This document shows positions 3,531 to 15,986 of a DNA stretch of 64,000 nt, piece after piece (the first letter of the stretch is position 1; each line of letters begins with the position of its first letter). Below the pieces are notes generated by a model, which was not told the origin of the DNA, searched no databases, and saw nothing but the letters and a program-made list of their open reading frames with translations. The stretch is from Phanerodontia chrysosporium. Its lineage: Eukaryota; Basidiomycota; Agaricomycetes; Polyporales; Phanerochaetaceae. Location: the NCBI GenBank assembly GCA_001910725.1, contig MJGA01000005.1:186001-250000 (forward strand), in the 5' to 3' direction. A program made the translations under genes and the position numbers.

Positions 3531-4924
3531 ATGTCCTTCGCTGCCCTCCGTGCTTCGCTTCGGCGGGCTGCTGCCCCCGCTCCTGCCGCCCTTAGGCGTT
3601 CTGCCATCCGCTCTAGCGTGCGCAGGTACTCGACCGAACCCCCGCCCCCTCCTCCCCCTCCCAAGTCGCACACGGCGCTCTATGCTGGCCTTGGAGTTGC
3701 TGCTCTCGGAGGTGTCGCCTTCTGGGTCTACACCTCCGACAGCGAAGCCGCGAAATCTGCGGGCTCTGCAGTCCGGTCGAGCGTGCAAGGCGCAAAGGCT
3801 GCGACCAAATTCACGCCTACAAAGGAGGATTACATCAAGGTATGCATTTATGCCAACTAGTACAGCCTTCGGAGGTACTGAAGGCCCGCCCTCAGGTGTA
3901 CAATAAAATTGCAGAAGTCATGGACGAGGCCTCCGATAAGGACTACGATGGTGAGCATAGCGAGGACGCGTAGGCCCGTTCCGGGGCGCTCACGGTGGTA
4001 ATTAGATGGCTCTTACGGCCCTATCTTCCTGCGTCTCGGATGGCACTCGTCCGGCACGTACGACAAGGAGACCAACACGGGCGGCAGGTACGCTTATCTC
4101 CCCCGCTCATGTAGCCAGGAACATGCATTGACCTGCCTGCAGCAACTTCGCCACCATGCGCTTCGCCCCCGAGTCCGAGCACAAGGCCAATAAGGGCCTG
4201 CATGTTGCGCGCGACCTGATGGAGGAGATCCACAAGGAGTTCCCCTGGATCTCCTACGGCGACCTTTGGACACTCGGCGCGGTGACTGCCATCCAGGAGA
4301 TGGGCGGCCCGCACGTGCCCTGGAGACCGGGACGCATCGACGGCTACGCGGCGCAGGCGACGCCTGACGGCCGGCTTCCCGACGGCGCGCAGGGCGCAGA
4401 TCACCTCCGTCAGATCTTCGGGCGCATGGGCTTCGACGACCGCGAGATCGTCGCGCTCTCGGGCGGGCACGCCGTTGGGCGCTGCCACCGCGCGTGGAGC
4501 GGCTGGGACGGACCCTGGACGTTCTCGCCGGTCACGATGAGTAACTCGTTCTTCAAACTCCTCTTCGACGAGAAGTGGGTCCTCAAGAAGTGGGACGGCC
4601 CGAAGCAGTTTGAGGACAAGGGCACGCGCTCGCTCATGATGCTCCCCACCGACTACGTGCTTGTTCAGGACAAGAGCTTCAGGAAGTGGGCGCGCGCGTA
4701 CGCGGATGACGAGGAGCTGTTCTTCAAAGAGTGAGGGTTGCCCTTCGTGCATATTCCAATTCGTCATACTCATTCCGCTTTCCCCTAGCTTCGCCGCCGT
4801 CTGCGTCAAGTTGTTCGAAAATGGTGTCCCTGAGCATCAGTGGGCAACTACTGAGCCATGGATTATGCCAACGCTCGACGAGCAGAAGGAGGCACAAGAA
4901 GCTAAGGAGGCGAAGTCGTCGTAG
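3531..4924 (+). CDS. CCP1: Cytochrome c peroxidase, mitochondrial
   Basis: Class I heme peroxidase that reduces hydrogen peroxide with electrons from cytochrome c in the mitochondrial intermembrane space. Exons by hand are 3531-3839, 3896-3950, 4006-4087, 4143-4730 and 4789-4924, giving 389 residues in frame. The N-terminus is arginine-rich and lacks acidic residues ([19 protein letters not shown]), followed by a proline run and a membrane segment ([20 protein letters not shown]), as in inner-membrane-sorted CCP. The distal heme pocket is [12 protein letters not shown] with Arg, Trp and His. The proximal histidine is in [15 protein letters not shown], followed by the GPW tryptophan typical of CCP. 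The ATG at 3531 is chosen because it starts the targeting peptide; upstream in-frame ATGs add only GC-rich sequence. Confidence 0.95.
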
Positions 4925-5011: not shown

Positions 5012-5030
5012 TGTCGGAAATCTTAGCGCC
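5012..5030 (+). repeat. Left terminal inverted repeat
   Basis: It starts TGTCGGAAATC, identical for 11 bases to the reverse complement at 15976-15986. With one mismatch and one or two single-base gaps the match extends through AGCGC. It lies about 90 bp past the CCP1 stop codon, possibly within that gene's 3' region. Confidence 0.65.
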
Positions 5031-5039
5031 GCGTCATGA

Positions 5040-5290
5040 TAAGTCACGATGCCTCAATAGGGCTTGAGGCGAAGCGCCGGCTCGAGCGGCCTCGAGAGGA
5101 AAGCCAAGTCCTCCTGAGCTGATCAAGGGGAGCTCGTGACCCAGGTGATTATCTCGTGATGAGACAGCGATATCTCACGATTATCTCAAGATTACTCAAG
5201 AGGGGAGGCAGATCAGGATGCGTCACGAGGTTCCGTGATGGCTATTGAGTTGTCGTGAGGCCTCGTGATGGCGTTTTGAGCAGTAGAAGC
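5040..5290. repeat. Left subterminal TCACGA/TCGTGA motif array
   Basis: At least seven direct or inverted short motifs of the type GTCACGA, CTCGTGA, CTCACGA and TCGTGAGG lie between about 5043 and 5275. Similar motifs occur near the other end, which supports a transposase-binding role, as inferred from CACTA-family elements. Confidence 0.5.
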
Positions 5291-5319
5291 AAAAAAGACG
5301 CTCGAGCTTGTTCTTACGG

Positions 5320-5510
5320 GTTATTAGTTACCTTCATTACCATCGCTAGTTACTTGCTTACTTACTCAACTTACTTCATGATGCTTACTTACTTACTAGC
5401 TCGCTATTACACTATTTGATTATCACGCTTACTGTACTACTGCAGATACTTACTGCTTGTGTTTGCTGAGGTCACTGTGCTAACTTACTGCCTGCCATTA
5501 TATTTATTTA
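5320..5510. repeat. TTACT-rich low-complexity tract
   Basis: An irregular array of TTACTTAC-like units, AT-richer than the surroundings, lies between the left subterminal motifs and a degenerate tRNA-like sequence. It has no coding potential. Confidence 0.5.
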
Positions 5511-5516
5511 CTACGT

Positions 5517-5587
5517 ACCCTCTACGGGATTCGAACTTAGAGCGCCTACTTACAAGCGGACTAACAAAACAGCTACGCTAAAGGTCC
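5517..5587 (-). other. tRNA relic or tRNA-derived SINE head
   Basis: On the minus strand TAGCGTAGCTG (5580-5570) matches an A box exactly at tRNA position 8, and GTTCGAATCCC (5536-5526) matches a B box at the right distance. Several acceptor-stem and T-stem pairs are mismatched, so this is probably not a functional tRNA. Confidence 0.45.
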
Positions 5588-5759
5588 ATATGTATCATAC
5601 TACTAATTCCTATATGACATATCGTTAAACGCCTCAGGAGACCTCATGAGCTAACCGGCCTGCGCGAAATGCATCACAAGGGGTCGACAACAACGTGGAG
5701 GGCATAATATTTATTCAGGAGTGTAGACGAGAAAAAAACTACTGTGTGAATACTGCGTG

Positions 5760-7809
5760 CTAGGTGCGCGGGCGATTAGACTTCTTCTTGCGAGGAGCTG
5801 GGGCCGGTTTCTCTGCCTCGGCAGGCTCGACATTGTCCTTCTTCTTCTTGGAGCGCGTGGTGCGACCACTATCGACACCGCCGACAGCGTCACCGCCAGT
5901 GGCAGTAGGGGTCTTGCGGGCATTGCGGCCAGTGGCACCGCTTCCTGTCGTCGATGGTGAGGCAGACGGCTGCGTGCGAGATGGATCGGCGATGGCGACA
6001 TCATGCCCTTGGGGGTTAGCAGCCATCGAAGCATGCTCAGGCTCAGCGAGCCCTAGGGTGCGCACGCCGGCATTGAGATCTGCGAACTCGGATTCATCGG
6101 GCGGCTCGGGAATCGGGAATGGCGCTGCTACAGTCGTTGAGCCGAGTATGCGAGAGTTGGCGGAGGAAGTTGTGGAGGTTGGTCGGCCGCTCGACACTGG
6201 AGCAATGGAGGAGGCAGGGCTGGTTGCGTTCCGCGCTGAAGCTAAATCACCGGAGGGGCGAGTAGCAGCGGAGGGCGGCGACGGGCCTGCAACGACAGGA
6301 GCAGGGGGCACAGGGGTGGAGATAGATGCGCCCTCATTCCGGCTTGTGGCAATGCCAAGGAACTGCGCGTCGAGGGCCTGCTGCTCAAGCTGAAGAGCGG
6401 TGAGGTTAGATGAACTGGCCGTGGCATCCAATTCTGGGATGGCAGGGTCATGCCGACCCCAGAGTGCTGCAATCCACCAGTCGCGTGTGGCCCGCAGCTC
6501 GGCTTCGTCCCAGCGCTGGATAAGCTTCATCTTCCACTGGTAGTAGAGCGGGCTATATACGTCTTCTTTGAACTGCGGGTTCCCAGAAAGCACAAACTTT
6601 GCCTAGACACCATAAGTACGACAGACACGGACAGAGGGGCGAGGACGTACCAATATCCAAGACATTGCCATCATCCCTGGAGTCACCTTGCCTCGAATCG
6701 ACCAGTGATCAGCATTGGTGGAGTTTCCCGCAGACGTGCTGTCTGATGCAGTCGTGCCGGGAGACGATTTGCCGCAGACGCAAGCCTTCATGATCTACAC
6801 ATGCAGAGAGGTCAGGGACGAGCGAGTGAGTACAAGCAGGGCGACGCGTACATTAATGAGCATAGACCCCCGAAAGGCCATGGCGTTCACGCGGTGTTGG
6901 CCAGCAGGATACATGTACGGGGGATACGAGTCTTCATCCAGGCCTCGAAGCTTCACGGCATCGAGGTTATCTTTAAGCTGCGGGACAGGGACGGAGGCGA
7001 GATGACGATACTCCTCAGGTAGGCAGAGAAAGAGGGTTGATTTGACGTTGCCGACCAGGTGCGGCCGAACAGCGTTAGCAGAGCTAACGTACTGCACAAT
7101 GTAGTTAGTACGCCTGAACCGAGAGAAGCTGAAGAGACTCACGTGTTTGCCTATCCATGCTAACCTGCCCATCGACTGCTTCAAGAGCTGGTTCGCGCTC
7201 TCCCGCAGATCAGGCAGTGCATCGAAGACCTCAGCCTGGCGCGCCTTTCGTTCAGTCCTTTCGTCAGTATACCGGCTGGGTGACATGGGATCAACCTCAG
7301 GCCGCCTCTTGACATTGAAGATACTCTTCGACGGCCACATGTCGAAGAGGACGACTGACTTCTGACCAGCTCGCTTGATCGGGAGATCGAACGGAGCCAT
7401 ATCGAGAGGGCAGTCCGTGCTGGTGTCGCGCGAGCGTTTCTTCCTCTCGGCAAGCTTGTACCGTGCGTTCTCATTGTTCAGCCTTCGAATCAGCGTCCTG
7501 AGCTCTGCGTTGCGCAGCTGTGAGGTGCGCAAAGCCTGGCACACAGAAGATGCTTGGTCATCGAACCGGCGGCGCGATAGAATCAAGAAGGGTGCGACTC
7601 ACCTTTCGAATTTCATCTGCAGATGCGAGAGAGCTCGGCTCTTCCTCGATGGGATCTTGCAGAGCAGCACGAATGTCGGGATCGGCGGTGATGAGTGCTC
7701 CCTGCTGATCGTTCTCGTCTGGACCAGACTCGGCGGGCTGATCGTCCGACGTCTCGTCGGAAGACAGGCCTGAGTCGCTCGCAGGTGGGAGGACAGTGCG
7801 GCGGGGCAT
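5760..7809 (-). CDS. Unknown multi-exon protein carried by the transposon
   Basis: Five exons by hand, all joined in phase 0: 7809-7603, 7535-7143, 7091-6852, 6794-6651 and 6602-5760, giving 608 residues. The N-terminus is acidic (SDETSDDQPAESGPDEN). A heptad-like helical stretch (LRTLIRRLNNENARYKLAE) follows, then a conserved-looking core with VTPGMMAMSWILAKFVLSG and YYQWKMKLIQRWDEAE. The C-terminus, from about residue 380, is low-complexity Ser/Pro/Thr ending in lysine- and arginine-rich clusters that could be nuclear localisation signals. The VTPGMMA block followed by an aromatic/helical segment recalls the expanded basidiomycete DUF6698-like proteins; this is weak. No catalytic site is recognised. 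It sits about 400 bp downstream of the TET/JBP gene on the same strand. Confidence 0.75.
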
Positions 7810-8206
7810 TGCAACGATACGCGAGTGAACGAGACTTTCGAGGGGACGAGATGGGGTTGCGAAAATTTGTGATGGCTTTATATCTGCGAGATTTCAATCC
7901 AAAGCCAAATCGTCAGTCTGAATCTACTCGAAACCATGCTGCAGCAACACGTACGGTCTTTTCTTGGATGCTGCGTCACTCCATTGGCCAAGAGAGTGAG
8001 GAATCATGGTAGAATGCTGTGGAGTAGGCGGTGGACAGCATATACTGCCGTATACGGGCAACAAGTCGAAGCTCGCCGTGTAGACGCCGGTGTAAAGCAC
8101 GTTGCTTGATGCACGCTGCTGGCACGCGTCCACTTGAAGGCTGTTTGTCTGGCACGAAGCGTACAATTACGAGATTTTAAGTGACAGGTGCGAGCTACTA
8201 TACAGG

Positions 8207-9922
8207 CTAAGATAAAAGTTCCGCCGCTTCCCGGTCCGCCGCGAGCTCGTCGACCACGGAGAGAAGGGCCAGCTCTGAAGCCCATCGTGTCTCACGCTGC
8301 GCGCGAAGTTCGTCTGCGAAGTCAGTATCACCCAACTCAACCTCGCGCCAGGTACGAAACCCATATTCTACGAAACGAAACAGACCGCCGGACGCGTATT
8401 GCGTAAACGACCAGCGACTCTCGTTCTTGCCGATGGCGGTGTTGCCATGAGTGATGCACGCAGAGGGAATGAGGACAGTGGAGCCCGGGGGAAACTCAAC
8501 GACAATGCCGAGCTGCCGTAAGATGAGATGCCCGCCGCGAGTTGGGTCAAAGTCGCCGTCGCAGAAGATTGAGCACCACCCGGCTGCTCGATTGCCGTGG
8601 TCGTTGTGCTCCACGCACAGGGCATCGGGGCCAAAGTTGAAGGACGCGCACGGAAAGACGCTGCTATTCCAGAGGTAGTCGAGGTCCGGGTACTTGCTGT
8701 ACAGCTTGTCCAGCTTCGTAGCATAGTCTCGATACATTTTCGGGGCGTAAAACGCGAAGAGACCTGCCTCCCCTGTCAGGCGCGCCGTAGAGAATCGCAT
8801 GCAATTGACTTACTGCTCCCGAAGCTGGCGATACGTTTGATAGCCCCGCTTGCAATCAGCTTCGCGCAGGCTGCTGCATTACGTGCGGAGTGTCGCAAGA
8901 TGCCTGGGCGCTGGTGATGCGTGTCAGCATCGTGTTAGATATCGCACAAGTAATGACGCACCCTCTGCCCGCCACCATACGATGTTCCCACCGCAACGGT
9001 GCGGAACGACCCCCGACGGTCCTTCTGCCTGAAGTCCAACTCTTGCTTCACCTGCGCCATCACTTTTCCAGCGTCCTTGCAGCACTGCGCCCATCGATCT
9101 GGATCGCCAGGGAAGCCTCCGAGCATGGCGACGACTCTTCTTACAGAATCAAGGATTGCAGTCGTTGTTCTGCACAGCATGGACGGTGAGACCAATCAAG
9201 ATACTGAGCCGACCGAAGAGGCACTCACCTTCCATCCCACCGCACAAGGCGCAGACCTTCGGCGAGAACCTGCTCTATGGTTGGGATTCCGGTGCCCGCT
9301 GCGATGCGCCGGGCAATGTAGGCGCCAGCGGCGACGGTCTTGATGGTGAGCATTCGAAAATCCGCCAGATGATGCTGTAGAGGAGTCCTGTATGTCTTCG
9401 ACAATGACGATCGTATCTTGTACGTACTGGGTCGAATAGATTGTTTTTTTCTTGCGGAGCGCGCAGCCTTGCCCCGCTGCTTGTGGTTTCTGAGATCTTT
9501 CGGGCGAAGGCTGACCGTAGGCAAGGTGCCTTCGACAGGCGCCTGCAGGGGTAGCGGAGGGCTTGAAGGTGGCGTTGGGCATGGCGACGTCAATGGGGAA
9601 AGGGGAGGTGACGGTGAACGAGCGACTGTAGATGGGGACCGAGCAGAAGTGTGCGTGGAGCCGTGGGGATAGCAGAGGTGCTGGCCAGGCTCAACATCGT
9701 CGATACCGGCGGCATCGCGTCGCTCGTGCTCCTCGAGGGCGGCTTTGAGATCTTCTTCAATGCTACAGCTGTCAAGAAGGATGGCCACTTGGTCTAGGCC
9801 AGCTGAGCCGAGCGTTGGAATATTTACCGGGTCGAGGGTCTGAAGTTGCATGCGCGGATAGGTGAGACACGGCTGTATAGGAAAAAACAAGCTGATTTAC
9901 TTACAAGGGGTGATGAGGGCAT
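8207..9922 (-). CDS. TET/JBP-like 2OG-Fe(II) dioxygenase
   Basis: Putative nucleic-acid base hydroxylase of the fungal TET/JBP type, which oxidises 5-methylcytosine or thymine using 2-oxoglutarate and Fe(II). Exons are 9922-9905, 9872-9229, 9169-8962, 8910-8814 and 8772-8207, giving 510 residues in frame. Residues 1-180 are Ser/Pro-rich with a basic patch (KQRGKAARSARKKQ) that may direct it to the nucleus or DNA. A conserved GTSYGGGQ block precedes the catalytic double-stranded beta-helix. The Fe(II) ligands read as His378 and Asp380 (EHNDHGN) and His431 (IPSACITHGN); Arg442 (ESRWSFTQYASGG) is the likely 2OG-binding residue. All expected metal ligands are present and the frame is intact. Substrate preference cannot be told from sequence. 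The initiator is an 18-bp exon ending at a good GTAAGT donor. Confidence 0.8.
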
Positions 9923-11769
9923 GGTTTGCTTTATCGAGTCGGAAAGGAGGGGTAAGGGGATTGCGTAGGTGCGTGTGAAGTAGGCGAGAAGGCAGGGAGC
10001 GTCAAGTGCGACGCGCCGCGAAAGCCTGTTTCACGCGAAGTCACGCCACTCGTGACCGCTTGCGTGACCAGCCACCCGCGTCGTACTGCACAGTTTATCA
10101 GCCCCCCAACCTCGACCAGCCTGGTCAGCGACGGCTGACCTTTCCCCCACGCCAATGCACTGCTCCCCGCTGGGCTGACTAGCCCTACGAGGGAGCTGCC
10201 CCCCTCCCCCTCTCCACGCCCTGACCTCTCCCCGTGCCTGCAGCAGCGGCTATGCGCGCTCTCGCCAGATCTTGCTGGGCTAACCGGCCCTACGAGCACA
10301 TCTGCGCGATGATTACCGCAGAGCTTATGCTCAGGGGCTTCGGCATGGCCCCATCATCCTTCACCGCCTCTTTCTTCCCGCTCCTTTCTAGCTCGCCGCC
10401 GACGAGCACTCTTGCTGCACCGGCCGGCGGCGGCTATGCATTGCGGTATCCCTAGGTAAGTCTTAGTGCTGAGCACCCTCCTCACTGCGACGATTTGAGT
10501 GCCTGACCTATCCTGCAGATGTTCACCCTCGCCAACGGCGGAACCTTCACGTGGATAGGGATGGAATGGCAGAGGTTAGATCAGACGTGCGGGTAAGATT
10601 GGGCTAGAACACACGTACGTTGTAGCGTTCCGATTATTAGATAACCCGCGCACGGGTGTGCCTTGGGAGGCAACGGCGAGGTCGTTGAGGCTGTATCAAG
10701 GCGACGTGAACTGAAGGGCAACGGTGGCAGCAAAGGCCCCGGGCACGAGGGGCTGTCATGAAGTGAGACCATGAAGCTCTCTGCTCTCATTGTCCTGCTG
10801 CGCGCCCCACAAACGCTTGCTCTCGAAGCTGAGCGGCGCTGTCACCGGTAGCGCGAGATAGAGCGGTGTGGCGCCGTTGAAGGCCCGGCGGCGCAGCGGG
10901 TCCGCCGTCATGCGATGCGCCCGACGGGGAGGTGCGCAGCACAGACGCGGTGGCACTGCAGTCGCACGCGTGGATGCTCTGCACGCTCGAGGAGAGCTGC
11001 GTTGACGCGCGCATGCCTGAGGCAAGCATGGCCTTTGCCGAGGGCATGATCCACAACGGCGAGGTCGTGGCACACACGCAGGTGATGAAGGAGGGGCGTG
11101 TGCGTCTTGGAAAGAGAGCAATGACCCATGGCCCACGGGATCCAAGAATTGAGCTGCGGGCGGCAGGTTTCTGCATGGTCAGATGATGAAGATGCTGGTT
11201 TTGCACATACCTGGTCTGCGTGCTTGGGATCGTAGTTGTTTCACCTTCTCCACGCAGCTTGATGTATCTCTACGTTTTCAGCAGTGTGGGCAGAGTGAGT
11301 TAACCAACATTCGGACCCGGCGAGAACCGGATGTATGCAGGCCTCAAAAGCACCGCAGATGACATGGCCAACAGCACGCTGTACGAGCGTTGACACAAGC
11401 CTATAAATTACCTTGTTGCTTACAGGTTGATGTTAGCATCGGGAGTGACCAGCTGAACGACAAGCTGCCACTGACTTTGGGTAGCCCTCTCATGCCCTGC
11501 TGGCTGATTTCGCATAGTGGGCGTGGGGTTGTCACTGTGTTGGGGCTTGAGTTCTGCTCTTGGCAGTTGAAATGAGTGATGACCCAGTTCTCTTGGTGCG
11601 GGCGTCGCAGCACGTTGCTTGAAAGCCTGAACTTCCCGCTGCACAGCCTGCAATATTTCCATCAATCCATCAGCGCCACAAAGGTTCCTTACGCGAGGGA
11701 CTCCAGTTTGGTCAATGTTGCGTACACATGTCAGATAGGTTCATTGTGTGCTACGTGGTACACAAAAAT
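9923..11769. other. Unassigned DNA inside the transposon
   Basis: About 1.85 kb between the TET/JBP gene and the transposase. A possible GT-AG intron lies at about 10456-10518 on the plus strand (GTAAGT to CCTGCAG) between short open frames, and open frames of 80-140 codons overlap at 10.76-11.2 kb on both strands. No domain is recognised. Composition shifts from GC-rich to AT-rich at about 11.2 kb. Confidence 0.4.
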
Positions 11770-14700
11770 CTAGTGACTCTGAAACAACTCTCTTGTACGG
11801 ATAAAAGCGTCTGAGTCTGTCACATCAACTACGAAGTGATGTCCCACTCGAGCAGTGTCTGGATACAATATTACCCCTCGCTTGAGTGACTGTGCAGGTA
11901 TGAGTCTGCATTGGCTGCGAGGAACCTGCTTGACTGGGTATAGGCCTAGATCCAGCTCCCGCTTTCGACGGGTAACATATTGCATCGGTTGCACCAGGAG
12001 AAGGGGATATCGCTCTTCACTGCTTAGAGTTACTACAAAGGTGAAGATTAGCTTGGCGTAGGTGAGTGTGTCGTGATAATCATGGAAGAGGATGCTGTCG
12101 TAGCGTGATGATCCATGCCATGAGGGGTTGCATCTTAGTAAATCTGTCTTGAGTCGCCATGTGATGAGTGATTCGTAATCAACCTCCAAGAGATTGCACT
12201 CAGTAACCTAATTCCTACAGCTTAAGAAGCATACAACTGATGTGAATGACTTGGACGTTACCATTTTATCTCCTGGCTCTAGCAGTGGCCTGCCTGTTCT
12301 CCCAGGAATATTGTTGATAGCCCGCAACTGATAGATGATAGTTGCAACTTTCTGTCGAAAGTTTCTGAAAGCGAGGTCGTCGACATGTTCAACCTCAACA
12401 TTGGAGAAGGAGGTCAAAGGTGACCGAGAGCCAAGGTAAACTGCTCCAAATTGATATAGCTTCCTGGTGTCTGATTGCTTCTCTGTTTGTGTATGTTTGA
12501 TATGCTCATCAACTCTTGCCCGGATGGCATTGCAACACAAGAACTTGTGGTCAATTTTAGTGATCTACTAGTACATTAGCATATATATCAAGTATATGAA
12601 CAACCACATACCTGGTCGAATATTTGCTTGTTATTAGTGCGGTTTTTTGCCCAGTCACGTATAGGACCATGAAGGCATTCCCATAGCCTAGTGCTCATAT
12701 GCTGTATAGCCCCTTTCCTCCGTATGTCATCAGAGGCATGTGTGTGTGTGTGCATCTTCGGAAAATTCCAGCTCTTCTTGGGAATCTTTGCTGGACGAAC
12801 AAGTTCATAAAGATCTTCATGCTCCTAAGAACTTCTATCAGCCACGGATGCATATTTCTGAATGAGTGTTTATACTGCAATTAGATCTCCAAATTCTTCA
12901 ATGCACTTGTCCAATGCCTGCAGGGTTTCTTCGGTGTGCACCTCAAAGCCCATGTACATGTCGCATTCCAGGTACTTGCGAAGAGCTCGAAGAAGTGAGT
13001 AGCCTGCCTCTGACTTGCTCTCTGTCATGACATTACATGATGCAAAAATCAGGACCTACACAGAGAATTGATTAAATATGAGCATCATAGAGTTTGGCAT
13101 CTTTACCTTTGATATATCCTGGTACTTGGTGCCATCGGTGAAGTCAACAAGCAGAATACCACTGAAGTGGTTCAGGTTTGGCCAGGGAGGCATCATATTA
13201 GCTCTTAACAAAGTTAAGCTTGCATATAATGAGTTTGTTTTGACTACAACTCACCCTTGATCAATCAAAGCACGATCTGCTCGTCCGAAGCCTTGACCAT
13301 TGCAAATGGCCTTGAAGCGGTCCCACAGGTGATGTCCAAATAGGCCAATGTGATATGCATGTAGGCGATCAAAGGACAGTGCTTTATAGATGCAGGTATT
13401 CCCCAACATCCAGAAGACATTCTGACAATTGTAAATAACGATAAGTAGTTGTAGACAATGCATTTGGCTTACCACAACTGGACGTAGGCCCTCAGTAGCT
13501 AATGCTTTCTCCTTGAGCGTCTTGGTTGCATATACCCTTCCAATCATCTCAGAAGTATGCTTTGTTGTACGTCGCTCATGGAACGGGGCCGCCCGAATAT
13601 TTCCAAGCTGCTCTTGGGGTATCAAGCATACAGGACAAGGACATTTGCCACGAAAGCCGCGGATTAAGGCCATTACGCATCTTCAAAGTGTCAGAATTAA
13701 CACAAAAAATAGAGCAGATAACTGTGGAGTACATACTGTTCCTCGTAGTCTGCTGATAGGATATGGATGAAAGGATAGAGCACTCGCCGCACTCCGTCGC
13801 CACACATGACAGGAAAGCCCACTTTGGACAGCTCGCTGATACTTTCTAGCACTTTCTCAAAGCCTTTATGCCAGATCACCTTCTTGAAGTCCACCCACTC
13901 CTTGATTTTCCGCTGTTCCGAGGTGTCTTTCATCTGATTATAATGTCAGAATACTCAACCAATAAAATAGTCGTGGTACGTACTAAGGGCAAAAATCCTA
14001 CTACACATCCACCTCCGAAACCTCGGCCATTTCGGATGGAGCTATCAAGATTAGATATACGGGCCATGACTGGGTATCCCTCTTGCGTTCCGAAGCTGGA
14101 AATCTTGGATTTATCTGCAAACAATATTATTCCAAGTGGTTTAGCTTCTGGGTCGTCTTTGAGAGCACTCTGGAATGACAAATTAGTGGCTATCATATTG
14201 TTGGGCATCAGAGCATACCTGTGCGTCCCACATACTACTACCAGTAATGGGGTCTTTCCAATATGGCTGCCATGCCTCACCGTCCCATTTGGACATACGC
14301 ATTGCATCCCACTGGAAATGTGGGCCAAGGCGTGGCTCTCCAACCACTGACTCAACCCACTCCCATAGATTTCGCACGTGGACATTGTAGGACATCTCAG
14401 TGCCACGGTAGGTCTCTGTAATGGTATGCTTCTTAAACTAATGGATTTTTCAGTAAGCTACAGACAGACAATTTCTAAACAAGTGTCATACCGGCGGGTG
14501 AAACACCGCAGCTCTTTCCCAGTTGGAGTTCATATGATTGTAGTCCCTAAGCGAGAATGTTGATTCGCCAGCTCGCACCTTCGCGATAATGCTGAGAAGT
14601 GTGTTGACCTGCTCCTCCTTTAAACCAGCATGAAGTGCAACCTCCGCAAACTTGAAGTCATCCAAAGACTCAAATGGAGCATGGGACTCCTCGAAGTTCT

Positions 14701-15556
14701 CAGGCAGAGGCACGCGCAGAGGCTGCTCACGTTTGAAGTGGGAGAAGCGGTAAATCTTGGCTCCACGGCCACTCAAAGGGTGATACTCGACTCTGATGTC
14801 GTCAAGCACGCGCTGCGCCTCGGTTACATCGCCCTCTTCGTCCTCGTCTTCACCTGCGCCATGTTGCTCTGAAGGCGCAGAACCATGATGTGGTGATGAA
14901 GACGGTTCCCTCGCTCAGCAGTGAGTGCTGCCTTAGGGGAAGGCGCATACGGAGATGGTGTATTCGGGGCACTTGGGAAGACGGTGTGCGAGGGGAGTGC
15001 ACTCGCAGAGACGGTGCGTGAGGGGAAGGTGCGTGAGGAGATGGGATGCGTGGGAGCGGCGTTATAGAGGGACTAGGCCCTGGTTGCCCTAGCGGTCCGT
15101 CGCCCTCGACAAACAGCTCTGACGGCGTTGCCGGGGGAGACGGCGCTGCAGTCGAGGGCACAGGTGCTATGGAGGCGCCATCGTCTGCAATGGCAATACA
15201 AAAGCTATGGTATCAGCGCACCAAACCCGAGTTAGAGCAGTGGGGACTTACCACCGTCGGTAGAAGGACCAGCGGGAGCTGCTTCAGACATGGCGGCCTC
15301 GTCATCGTCTGCAGTGTGTGTCCGCTTTCGCCGCTCTACATGGTATGGGTTAGTAGAATGACCTTCTAATGCTATAATAATACGCACTATTTTTCCTCTT
15401 TCTCGCCAACTCCTCAAGTGCCCTCCGATCTCGGGCCTGCTCTTCGTGGAATCTCGCGCAGCTAGTGGCATGCGAAACGAATCCCCCCTCGGCGAACCAG
15501 TCCTTGCACGTCGGACATTGTTTTGGCTGGCTACGCTGGGACCGCCTCCGAGACAT
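11770..15556 (-). CDS. Plavaka-like transposase
   Basis: DNA transposase of the Plavaka type, widespread in basidiomycete genomes and placed near the CACTA/CMC group. It starts with a zinc-finger-like motif (CPTCKDWFAEGGFVSHATSC; C-x2-C...H-x4-C) and a Pro/Ser-rich linker, then the family core: FADKSKISSFGTQEGYPVMA, GFGGGCVVGFLPL, HILSADYEEQCVMALIRGF, CPCPVC, and the histidine-rich ALSFDRLHAYHIGLFGHHLW. Later blocks include KSWNFPKMH and HGPIRDWAKN. About a dozen exons are needed. From 14809 to the stop at 11770 every junction I tested keeps the frame with GT-AG borders, so the core looks intact. In the Pro/Ser linker at about 14.86-14.99 kb the frame changes twice, fitting either single-base losses or an unrecognised intron. 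Confidence 0.8.
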
Positions 15557-15819
15557 CTGACAGCGGGGGATGGCGGCGAGATGCGGGTTTGTATATCTGG
15601 GCGCAAAATGATCTGAGCACACAGCACCCAGGAGATGAAGGCCCCACCAGCCATCTCTGACTCACCAGACGGCGGAAAGAACTGATATTTCGATTTATTC
15701 AGATTGCACGCTGTAAGGAGAGGGCTTGGGGCGAAGGGGGAAAGCGTGGGGGATAGATACGAACCAGGGTTGACGAAAGGAGCCCTGCGCACCTTGTCCG
15801 CGTACGGCAGGCGCCCTCA

Positions 15820-15955
15820 CAAGCATCTCACGAGGGCTCGCGAGTTATCTTATCGCCTTACGATCGACGCGTGAGATCATGCCGCGCATCAGAGTATCTC
15901 ACGAGCGCCTCGCGAGCATCTCGTGAGGCACGGCTGATGCCGGCTCGAGGTCCAG
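15820..15955. repeat. Right subterminal TCACGAG/CTCGTGA motif array
   Basis: Motifs ATCTCACGAG, CGTGAGATC, ATCTCACGAG and ATCTCGTGAGG, interleaved with CTCGCGAG palindromes, lie within about 130 bp. They share the TCACGA/TCGTGA core with the array at the left end. Confidence 0.5.
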
Positions 15956-15967
15956 ACCTCGCGAGGC

Positions 15968-15986
15968 GCGCTCAGGATTTCCGACA
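15968..15986 (-). repeat. Right terminal inverted repeat
   Basis: The reverse complement begins TGTCGGAAATCCTGAGCGC and pairs with the left terminus. The outermost 11 bases are identical. Confidence 0.65.

Follow-up and report, generated by a model that had tools for sequence, protein, structure and literature searches.

A Plavaka-type transposon of Phanerodontia chrysosporium with a TET/JBP-fold dioxygenase and a DUF6698 gene between its termini

The 2014 work of Iyer et al. is said to have tied expansions of TET/JBP genes to KDZ and Plavaka transposons, and to imply a TET-Plavaka linkage in Fomitopsis and Trametes (both Polyporales). According to the available part of a later survey, complete transposon structures were not known for data of that era, and no TET-carrying Plavaka is given there for Fomitopsis or Trametes (Kojima 2025, PMC12730594). 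The same part of the survey describes TGT..ACA termini and 2-bp target duplications for PlavakaA, in which it places no TET-carrying family; all of its TET-carrying Plavaka elements fall in PlavakaB, with CATCA..TGATG ends, and from Polyporales it reports only TET-carrying Kyakuja (PMC12730594). The element described here lies in a 64,000-bp window of the Phanerodontia chrysosporium genome (contig MJGA01000005.1, positions 186,001 to 250,000), and it carries three genes, for a Plavaka transposase, a TET/JBP-fold dioxygenase and a DUF6698 protein (Table 1). On balance we consider it probable that this is a cut-and-paste transposon of the CMCT clade of Plavaka whose own TET/JBP dioxygenase, encoded between the transposase and DUF6698, acts in cis as an anti-silencing factor. 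The initial annotation of the window had proposed a mobile 11-kb Plavaka-type block with a TET/JBP dioxygenase and a third gene of unnamed family; what it observed is confirmed, and its interpretation is supported and sharpened.

The block from 5012 to 15986 is practically established as a single mobile unit. Searches of the organism's own genome covered 39.0 Mb in 145 contigs (C-numbers below are contigs), and in six copies (window, C80, C57, C61, C56 and C124) all three genes are enclosed by matching termini. Two of these, C56 (11,187 bp) and C124 (11,197 bp), differ over their whole length by 20 substitutions and 10 gap columns (99.73% identity), and no similarity at E 1e-3 joins the flanks of the one (980 and 723 bp) to those of the other (1,019 and 4,294 bp): the pair is a recent move of the whole block, in line with the initial annotation's inference that the block moves as one unit. 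This move rules out that a transposon and a host gene are simply neighbours. With TET/JBP genes common among Agaricomycetes, chance linkage is conceivable, but the identical gene order in copies on other contigs and the movement of an exact 11.2-kb block leave it hardly credible that a Plavaka element inserted beside resident TET/JBP and DUF6698 genes and that the arrangement is no more than adjacency.

The ends themselves are well fixed. The window element is bounded by TGTCGGAAATC...GATTTCCGACA, with termini that read TGTCGGAAATCTTAGCGC from 5012 on the left and TGTCGGAAATCCTGAGCGC ending at 15986 on the right; their outer 11 bases are identical and similarity continues inward with a one-base gap. 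As DNA queries against the genome, the left 401 bp found three places, the window, C80 (76%) and C57 (75%), and these places were recovered again with the right end. In full-length comparison with C80 and C57, similarity starts at the left terminus and stops at the right one. A right-end pattern (19 bases, two degenerate) has nine matches at up to two mismatches in 39 Mb, the two free of mismatches lying at the right terminus of the window copy and at that of C80, and its reversed control has none. A chance match of the termini is ruled out by these copy alignments together with the pattern search and its empty control. Three further copies with diverged ends (TGTCAGAAC), C61, C56 and C124, were located via their genes, and in all five copies outside the window the termini lie outside all three genes; the result that was to refute the initial annotation, transposase copies whose ends exclude TET, was not obtained. 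Termini of the TGT..ACA type occur at six of the seven loci that hold both TET and transposase, that is, at every locus whose ends were found; the CATCA..TGATG termini of PlavakaB were not found on these copies. Target duplications of exactly 2 bp flank four of the six copies (C80 TA, C57 TG, C61 GA, C56 CG), and the C124 copy (C124:552581-563777) has none (TC/CA), although its twin C56 has CG. Similar subterminal motifs at both ends had also been noted earlier, and the word CTCNNGAG bears this out: in the window copy it occurs three times within the 400 bp at the left end (5091, 5111, 5195) and six times within the 400 bp at the right end (15827-15958), against an expectation of 0.08 per 400 bp estimated from the middle of the element. 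The left-hand 400 bp of this copy contain no instance of the stricter word CTCRYGAG. C57 and C61 also have CTCNNGAG words at both ends, C56 and C124 have five on the left and one on the right, and in C80, which has about 1.5 kb of additional DNA near its right terminus, the right-hand set lies inside of this insert. A 19-mer two mismatches from the right-terminus pattern, TGTCGGACATCCTCAGCGG, is found at C91:5042-5060 and C108:35949-35967, perhaps at the ends of another related element.

All three genes are multi-exon and lie on the minus strand, as first described, and the TET and DUF6698 models splice with GT-AG introns and no stops. The Plavaka type of the transposase follows from PF18759 (cut-off 26.3 bits), which scores above cut-off on two exons, at 13251-13682 (29.3 bits) and 13697-13945 (33.8 bits), and below it at 14183-14437 (21.5 bits). 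Kojima 2025 describes for Plavaka a DDE core with C(2)C and H(3-4)H motifs between the second D and the last E; inspection of the reading frames showed two candidate Asp residues and CPVC. The DNA over this gene is indeed AT-rich (GC 0.46 over 11420-14450, 0.57 in the N-terminal part) against 0.58-0.59 in the other two genes. The 714 window transposase codons compared are all open, by construction, because the longest open piece per exon was picked; at each of C80, C57, C61 and C63 a single stop is present among the codons examined, perhaps through misread introns or real damage. Genome-wide, PF18759 gives 102 exon matches, some of them on C91, which form 47 loci when grouped by hand. In an unrooted tree built from pieces of the transposase, the window, C80, C57, C61 and C56 copies are set apart from the others with 97% support (FastTree 0.997), and the position of C63 in it is insecure.

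The dioxygenase was likewise rightly assigned to the TET/JBP type. Fold comparison, made on a relative 52% identical to the window protein, matched the TET/JBP double-stranded beta-helix fold, with CcTET as the closest solved fold. Across 40 relatives the iron triad HxD...H and the 2-oxoglutarate (2OG) Arg (window H365, D367, H418 and R429) are retained in 39/39, 39/39, 40/40 and 39/40 rows, one row being gapped at HxD. The window protein also has N370, and this Asn of the motif HxDxxNxxxGxC may be the counterpart of the Asn with which TET2 contacts 5-methylcytosine (5mC), an arrangement other than that of CcTET. At E <= 0.1, 19 of the 40 relatives match Pfam Tet_JBP (PF12851), the best at 9.3e-5. 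Among the 8000 candidates sharing most words that were scored, the nearest named relatives are from Phanerochaete sordida (52-55% identity). A public protein from short contigs (P0001, 481 aa) is 97.9% identical to the C56 TET protein over 187 residues of the catalytic part; close relatives of the element are therefore present in other sampled material. A PF12851 family search returned no match in the organism's genome or in the control genomes, which reflects a failure of sensitivity, because protein queries find 12 TET loci of the window family. Seven of the 12 are within 6 kb of Plavaka. The remaining five have no Plavaka match within 30 kb (C69:120346, C72:186760, C80:967573, C2:706470, C80:1343228); C69 is stop-free in the matched exon, and the other four have stops in the matched frame.

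Could the dioxygenase be a passenger, a host gene enclosed by chance and of no use to the element? The five TET loci away from Plavaka would fit such an origin, as would the existence of TET-less relatives such as the C1 element described below, but TET occupies the same slot in seven loci and in deep lineages, and the pattern of selection speaks against it. Between distinct copies the synonymous difference (pS) is 0.54-0.86 across the three genes, near saturation (the C56/C124 twins, which differ too little to inform on selection, are left out here and below), and the nonsynonymous difference (pN) between the window and C80 is 0.050 in TET exon 4, 0.085 in the transposase pieces and 0.219 in the DUF6698 exons. 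The measured coding stretches of all three genes are thus shown to be under purifying selection, strongest on the catalytic exon of the dioxygenase, which has a pN/pS of 0.09-0.31 over all pairs and is stop-free in the window and six other loci. It is the most constrained stretch measured among the three genes, which would not be expected of a passenger, and we regard that explanation as very unlikely.

The third gene, left without a name by the initial annotation, is carried inside the termini and encodes a DUF6698 protein (PF20414, E 1.3e-10, 41.8 bits, cut-off 23.7). A homolog search returned a single protein among 8000 candidates scored, and a literature search found no paper on DUF6698. 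Canonical DUF6698 genes occur at six loci of the genome (C2:310604-311392, C124:1028604-1029392, C125:14462-15221, C59:348788-349572, C102:869470-870243 and C77:32608-33381), five of which lie 2.7-3.9 kb from a Plavaka match, with an expectation of about 1.7% for each to lie within 7 kb of one; because C2 and C124, whose scores are similar, probably represent copies of each other, four of five is the safer count. At all loci except C77 the canonical gene is on the strand opposite to the Plavaka match, contrary to the window element. These PF20414 matches omit the window-type DUF6698 copies, whose single exons are too divergent. A related element on C1 has termini of the same type, on the right TGTCGGAAAATCCG at 1670934 and on the left, by inference, at 1661195; it has no match to the TET profile, which gives more than 300 bits on true copies; its DUF6698-like frame is recognised by a home-made profile (E 1.6e-13), and Pfam itself makes no call. 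Most simply, DUF6698 is a Plavaka partner that precedes the arrival of TET or outlasts its loss. Because it is also found beside Plavaka transposases with no TET nearby, we take DUF6698 as a core accessory that would serve Plavaka transposition and would have no part in base-modification chemistry. Interruptions are seen or suspected in two other regions: at C81:156801-164800 a Gypsy-like long terminal repeat retroelement with an open frame of 1,264 aa breaks into the DNA that follows the TET-less transposase, and C1 diverges from C81 from this insertion point onward; in C80:925397-942914, Plavaka pieces (925 kb, 934 kb) share a strand with a DUF6698-like frame (942.5 kb), and together they may be parts of one interrupted TET-less element.

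What the dioxygenase might do is suggested by the pattern of mutation. Fourteen of the 20 substitutions between C56 and C124 are CpG transitions, with 1,494 of 11,187 aligned bases in CpG (p 1e-8), and in the TET-less C1/C81 pair they number 10 of 13 over 3,375 bp (p 7e-8), plus 0 of 1 over another 731 bp; these counts come from transposon pairs, with no non-transposon control. Such an excess is what deamination of 5mC would leave, in TET-carrying and TET-less elements alike. We read this as an element under CpG methylation, on which a 5mC oxidase would have a substrate. In the own genome the C5-methyltransferase family PF00145 is found on C44, with exon-size matches near cut-off on C80 (two), C69 and C2 (one each). 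The best explanation, drawn from fold, motif, selection and mutation pattern, is anti-silencing: the host would methylate CpG sites of the element, the dioxygenase would oxidise that 5mC, and the promoters of the element, perhaps its ends as well, would become usable again.

CpG content is unevenly spread over the element. The transposase coding sequence has an observed/expected CpG ratio of 0.65-0.71 at six TET-carrying loci and 0.76-1.14 at five relatives with no TET match nearby. The difference has a p value of 0.002, which is not a test of independent events because the five are interrelated; one of them, C80b (0.76), comes near the TET-carrying range, and C1 is the one read through for TET absence, the other four having no TET match within 30 kb. 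The ratio is 0.91-1.09 for the TET gene at six loci (borders approximate in five) and 0.98 for the window DUF6698 gene. That the transposase body is CpG-poor and these two genes are not would also suit an enzyme that makes a lasting mark (5-hydroxymethylcytosine, 5-formylcytosine or a further modified base) by which the element is regulated or repressed, with 5mC not being removed. For Laccaria and Coprinopsis, the available part of one study describes an enrichment of oxidised methylcytosines at transposons and suggests that they may act suppressively (PMC8889193). Against a lasting mark, no glycosyltransferase or reader family was found in the Pfam-scanned exons (not every frame was scanned), and we consider it a possible but unlikely account. 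In a bolder proposal, the element is the first complete TET-carrying member of PlavakaA, HxDxxNxxxGxC is a fourth motif class of transposon TET, and the TET/DUF6698 half is kept demethylated and expressed while methylation throttles the transposase, a built-in governor on jumping. The expected CpG level of the TET/DUF6698 half and the stronger 5mC-decay signature of the transposase than in TET-less relatives enter into this proposal, which is speculative and, taken whole, quite unlikely.

Several points weigh against the anti-silencing transposon as we have drawn it. As for the unit, proof of recent movement is carried by the single C56/C124 pair because the other TET-carrying copies are old, with synonymous sites near saturation; at C63, the seventh locus with TET and transposase, termini and DUF6698 were sought and not found; and the alignments with C80 and C57 fixed the ends of the window copy as the initial annotation had proposed, but its target duplication is not exact (AA left, CA right). 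The TET-less C1 element means that Plavaka in general does not require TET, and so tells against a strict definition of a TET-carrying unit. As for methylation, the signature is not tied to TET, because C1/C81 has an equal excess of CpG transitions, and the CpG-poor transposase body of the TET-carrying copies implies that the carried TET did not spare it the presumed 5mC decay. Constraint on TET was measured on the catalytic exon alone; the N-terminal part is far more variable (about 40% identity to C56). Finally, the strong evidence for TET identity comes solely from the fold comparison on the 52% identical relative: PF12851 is below gathering on the catalytic exon (12.3 bits, cut-off 34.9) and is not listed for the spliced protein at E <= 1, the protein P0002 matches the general 2OG family only (0.023), and sequence searches of the PDB (with a single exon and with profile A1) returned no TET structure.

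The window insertion lies 87 bp downstream of the stop codon of a cytochrome c peroxidase gene, whose best named matches are from P. sordida (Polyporales, Phanerochaetaceae; 84% identity) and Phlebiopsis gigantea (73%).

Table 1. Coordinates of the element, its parts and the flanking gene (window positions)
Feature	Position	Strand	Basis or remark
Whole transposon, TGTCGG...CCGACA	5012..15986 (10,975 bp)	.	same-genome copies alignable up to both ends; near-identical C56/C124 pair
Left terminal inverted repeat	5012..5030	+	
Right terminal inverted repeat	15968..15986	-	
Left subterminal CTCNNGAG words (n=3)	5091..5202	.	possibly transposase sites (inferred)
DUF6698 protein, 608 aa, five exons (7809-7603, 7535-7143, 7091-6852, 6794-6651, 6602-5760)	5760..7809	-	splice model, PF20414
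TET/JBP-fold 2OG-Fe(II) dioxygenase, 497 aa, four exons (9851-9229, 9169-8962, 8910-8814, 8772-8207)	8207..9851	-	splice model, fold of relative
Stretch between TET and transposase	9852..11400	.	without assigned gene; part 10031-10121 conserved in C80 copy
Plavaka transposase gene, many exons	11420..15558	-	PF18759 matches; splice model incomplete
Transposase first Asp; second Asp; CPCPVC	~14115; ~13750; ~13643-13626	-	inspection
Transposase Zn-finger-like N terminus	15350-15558	-	inspection
Right subterminal CTCNNGAG words (n=6)	15827..15965	.	possibly transposase sites (inferred)
Cytochrome c peroxidase gene	3531..4924	+	flanking, outside the element; stop codon 87 bp before left terminus

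When a transposon carries a base-modifying enzyme, nature provides a clean test of whether host silencing can be undone by mobile DNA. Given the recent near-identical pair, the TET-less relatives, the clear CpG signature and a catalytic exon more constrained than the transposase, function could be tested in this genome by removal of a single gene. The analysis also names DUF6698 as a recurrent Plavaka partner. Set beside described systems, the element is like Kyakuja/Zisupton transposons with AG-type TET, and like CcTET, in combining an Agaricomycetes DNA transposon with a TET/JBP enzyme, but those have another transposase family and an AG Asp at D+9 (CcTET D337), where window-type TET has Cys in 39/39 rows with letters (position taken by spacing from the catalytic Asp); a Kyakuja-type element with a CcTET-like gene is ruled out by the PF18759 match of the transposase and by the lack of the AG residue. 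With the TET-carrying PlavakaB elements of Agaricus bisporus and Gymnopus confluens, as far as the available part of the survey describes them, it shares a Plavaka transposase and TET/JBP within the termini; their ends are CATCA..TGATG, their hosts belong to Agaricales and their TET is of PE type (HxE), whereas the window element has TGT..ACA ends, a Polyporales host and HxD, as do 39/39 relatives with letters there (PMC12730594). PlavakaA, in the same account, has its TGT..ACA termini and 2-bp duplications in common with the window element, a likeness of terminal features alone, and differs by lacking TET (PMC12730594). In titles and the beginnings of abstracts from Plavaka literature searches, no other report of a TET-carrying Plavaka like this one was seen. 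If the terminal features place the element rightly, its PlavakaA-type ends, 2-bp duplications in most copies, TET gene and Polyporales host would extend TET capture to PlavakaA and to Plavaka of Polyporales, which adds to, and on this point contradicts, the survey as far as its available part goes (Kojima 2025, PMC12730594).

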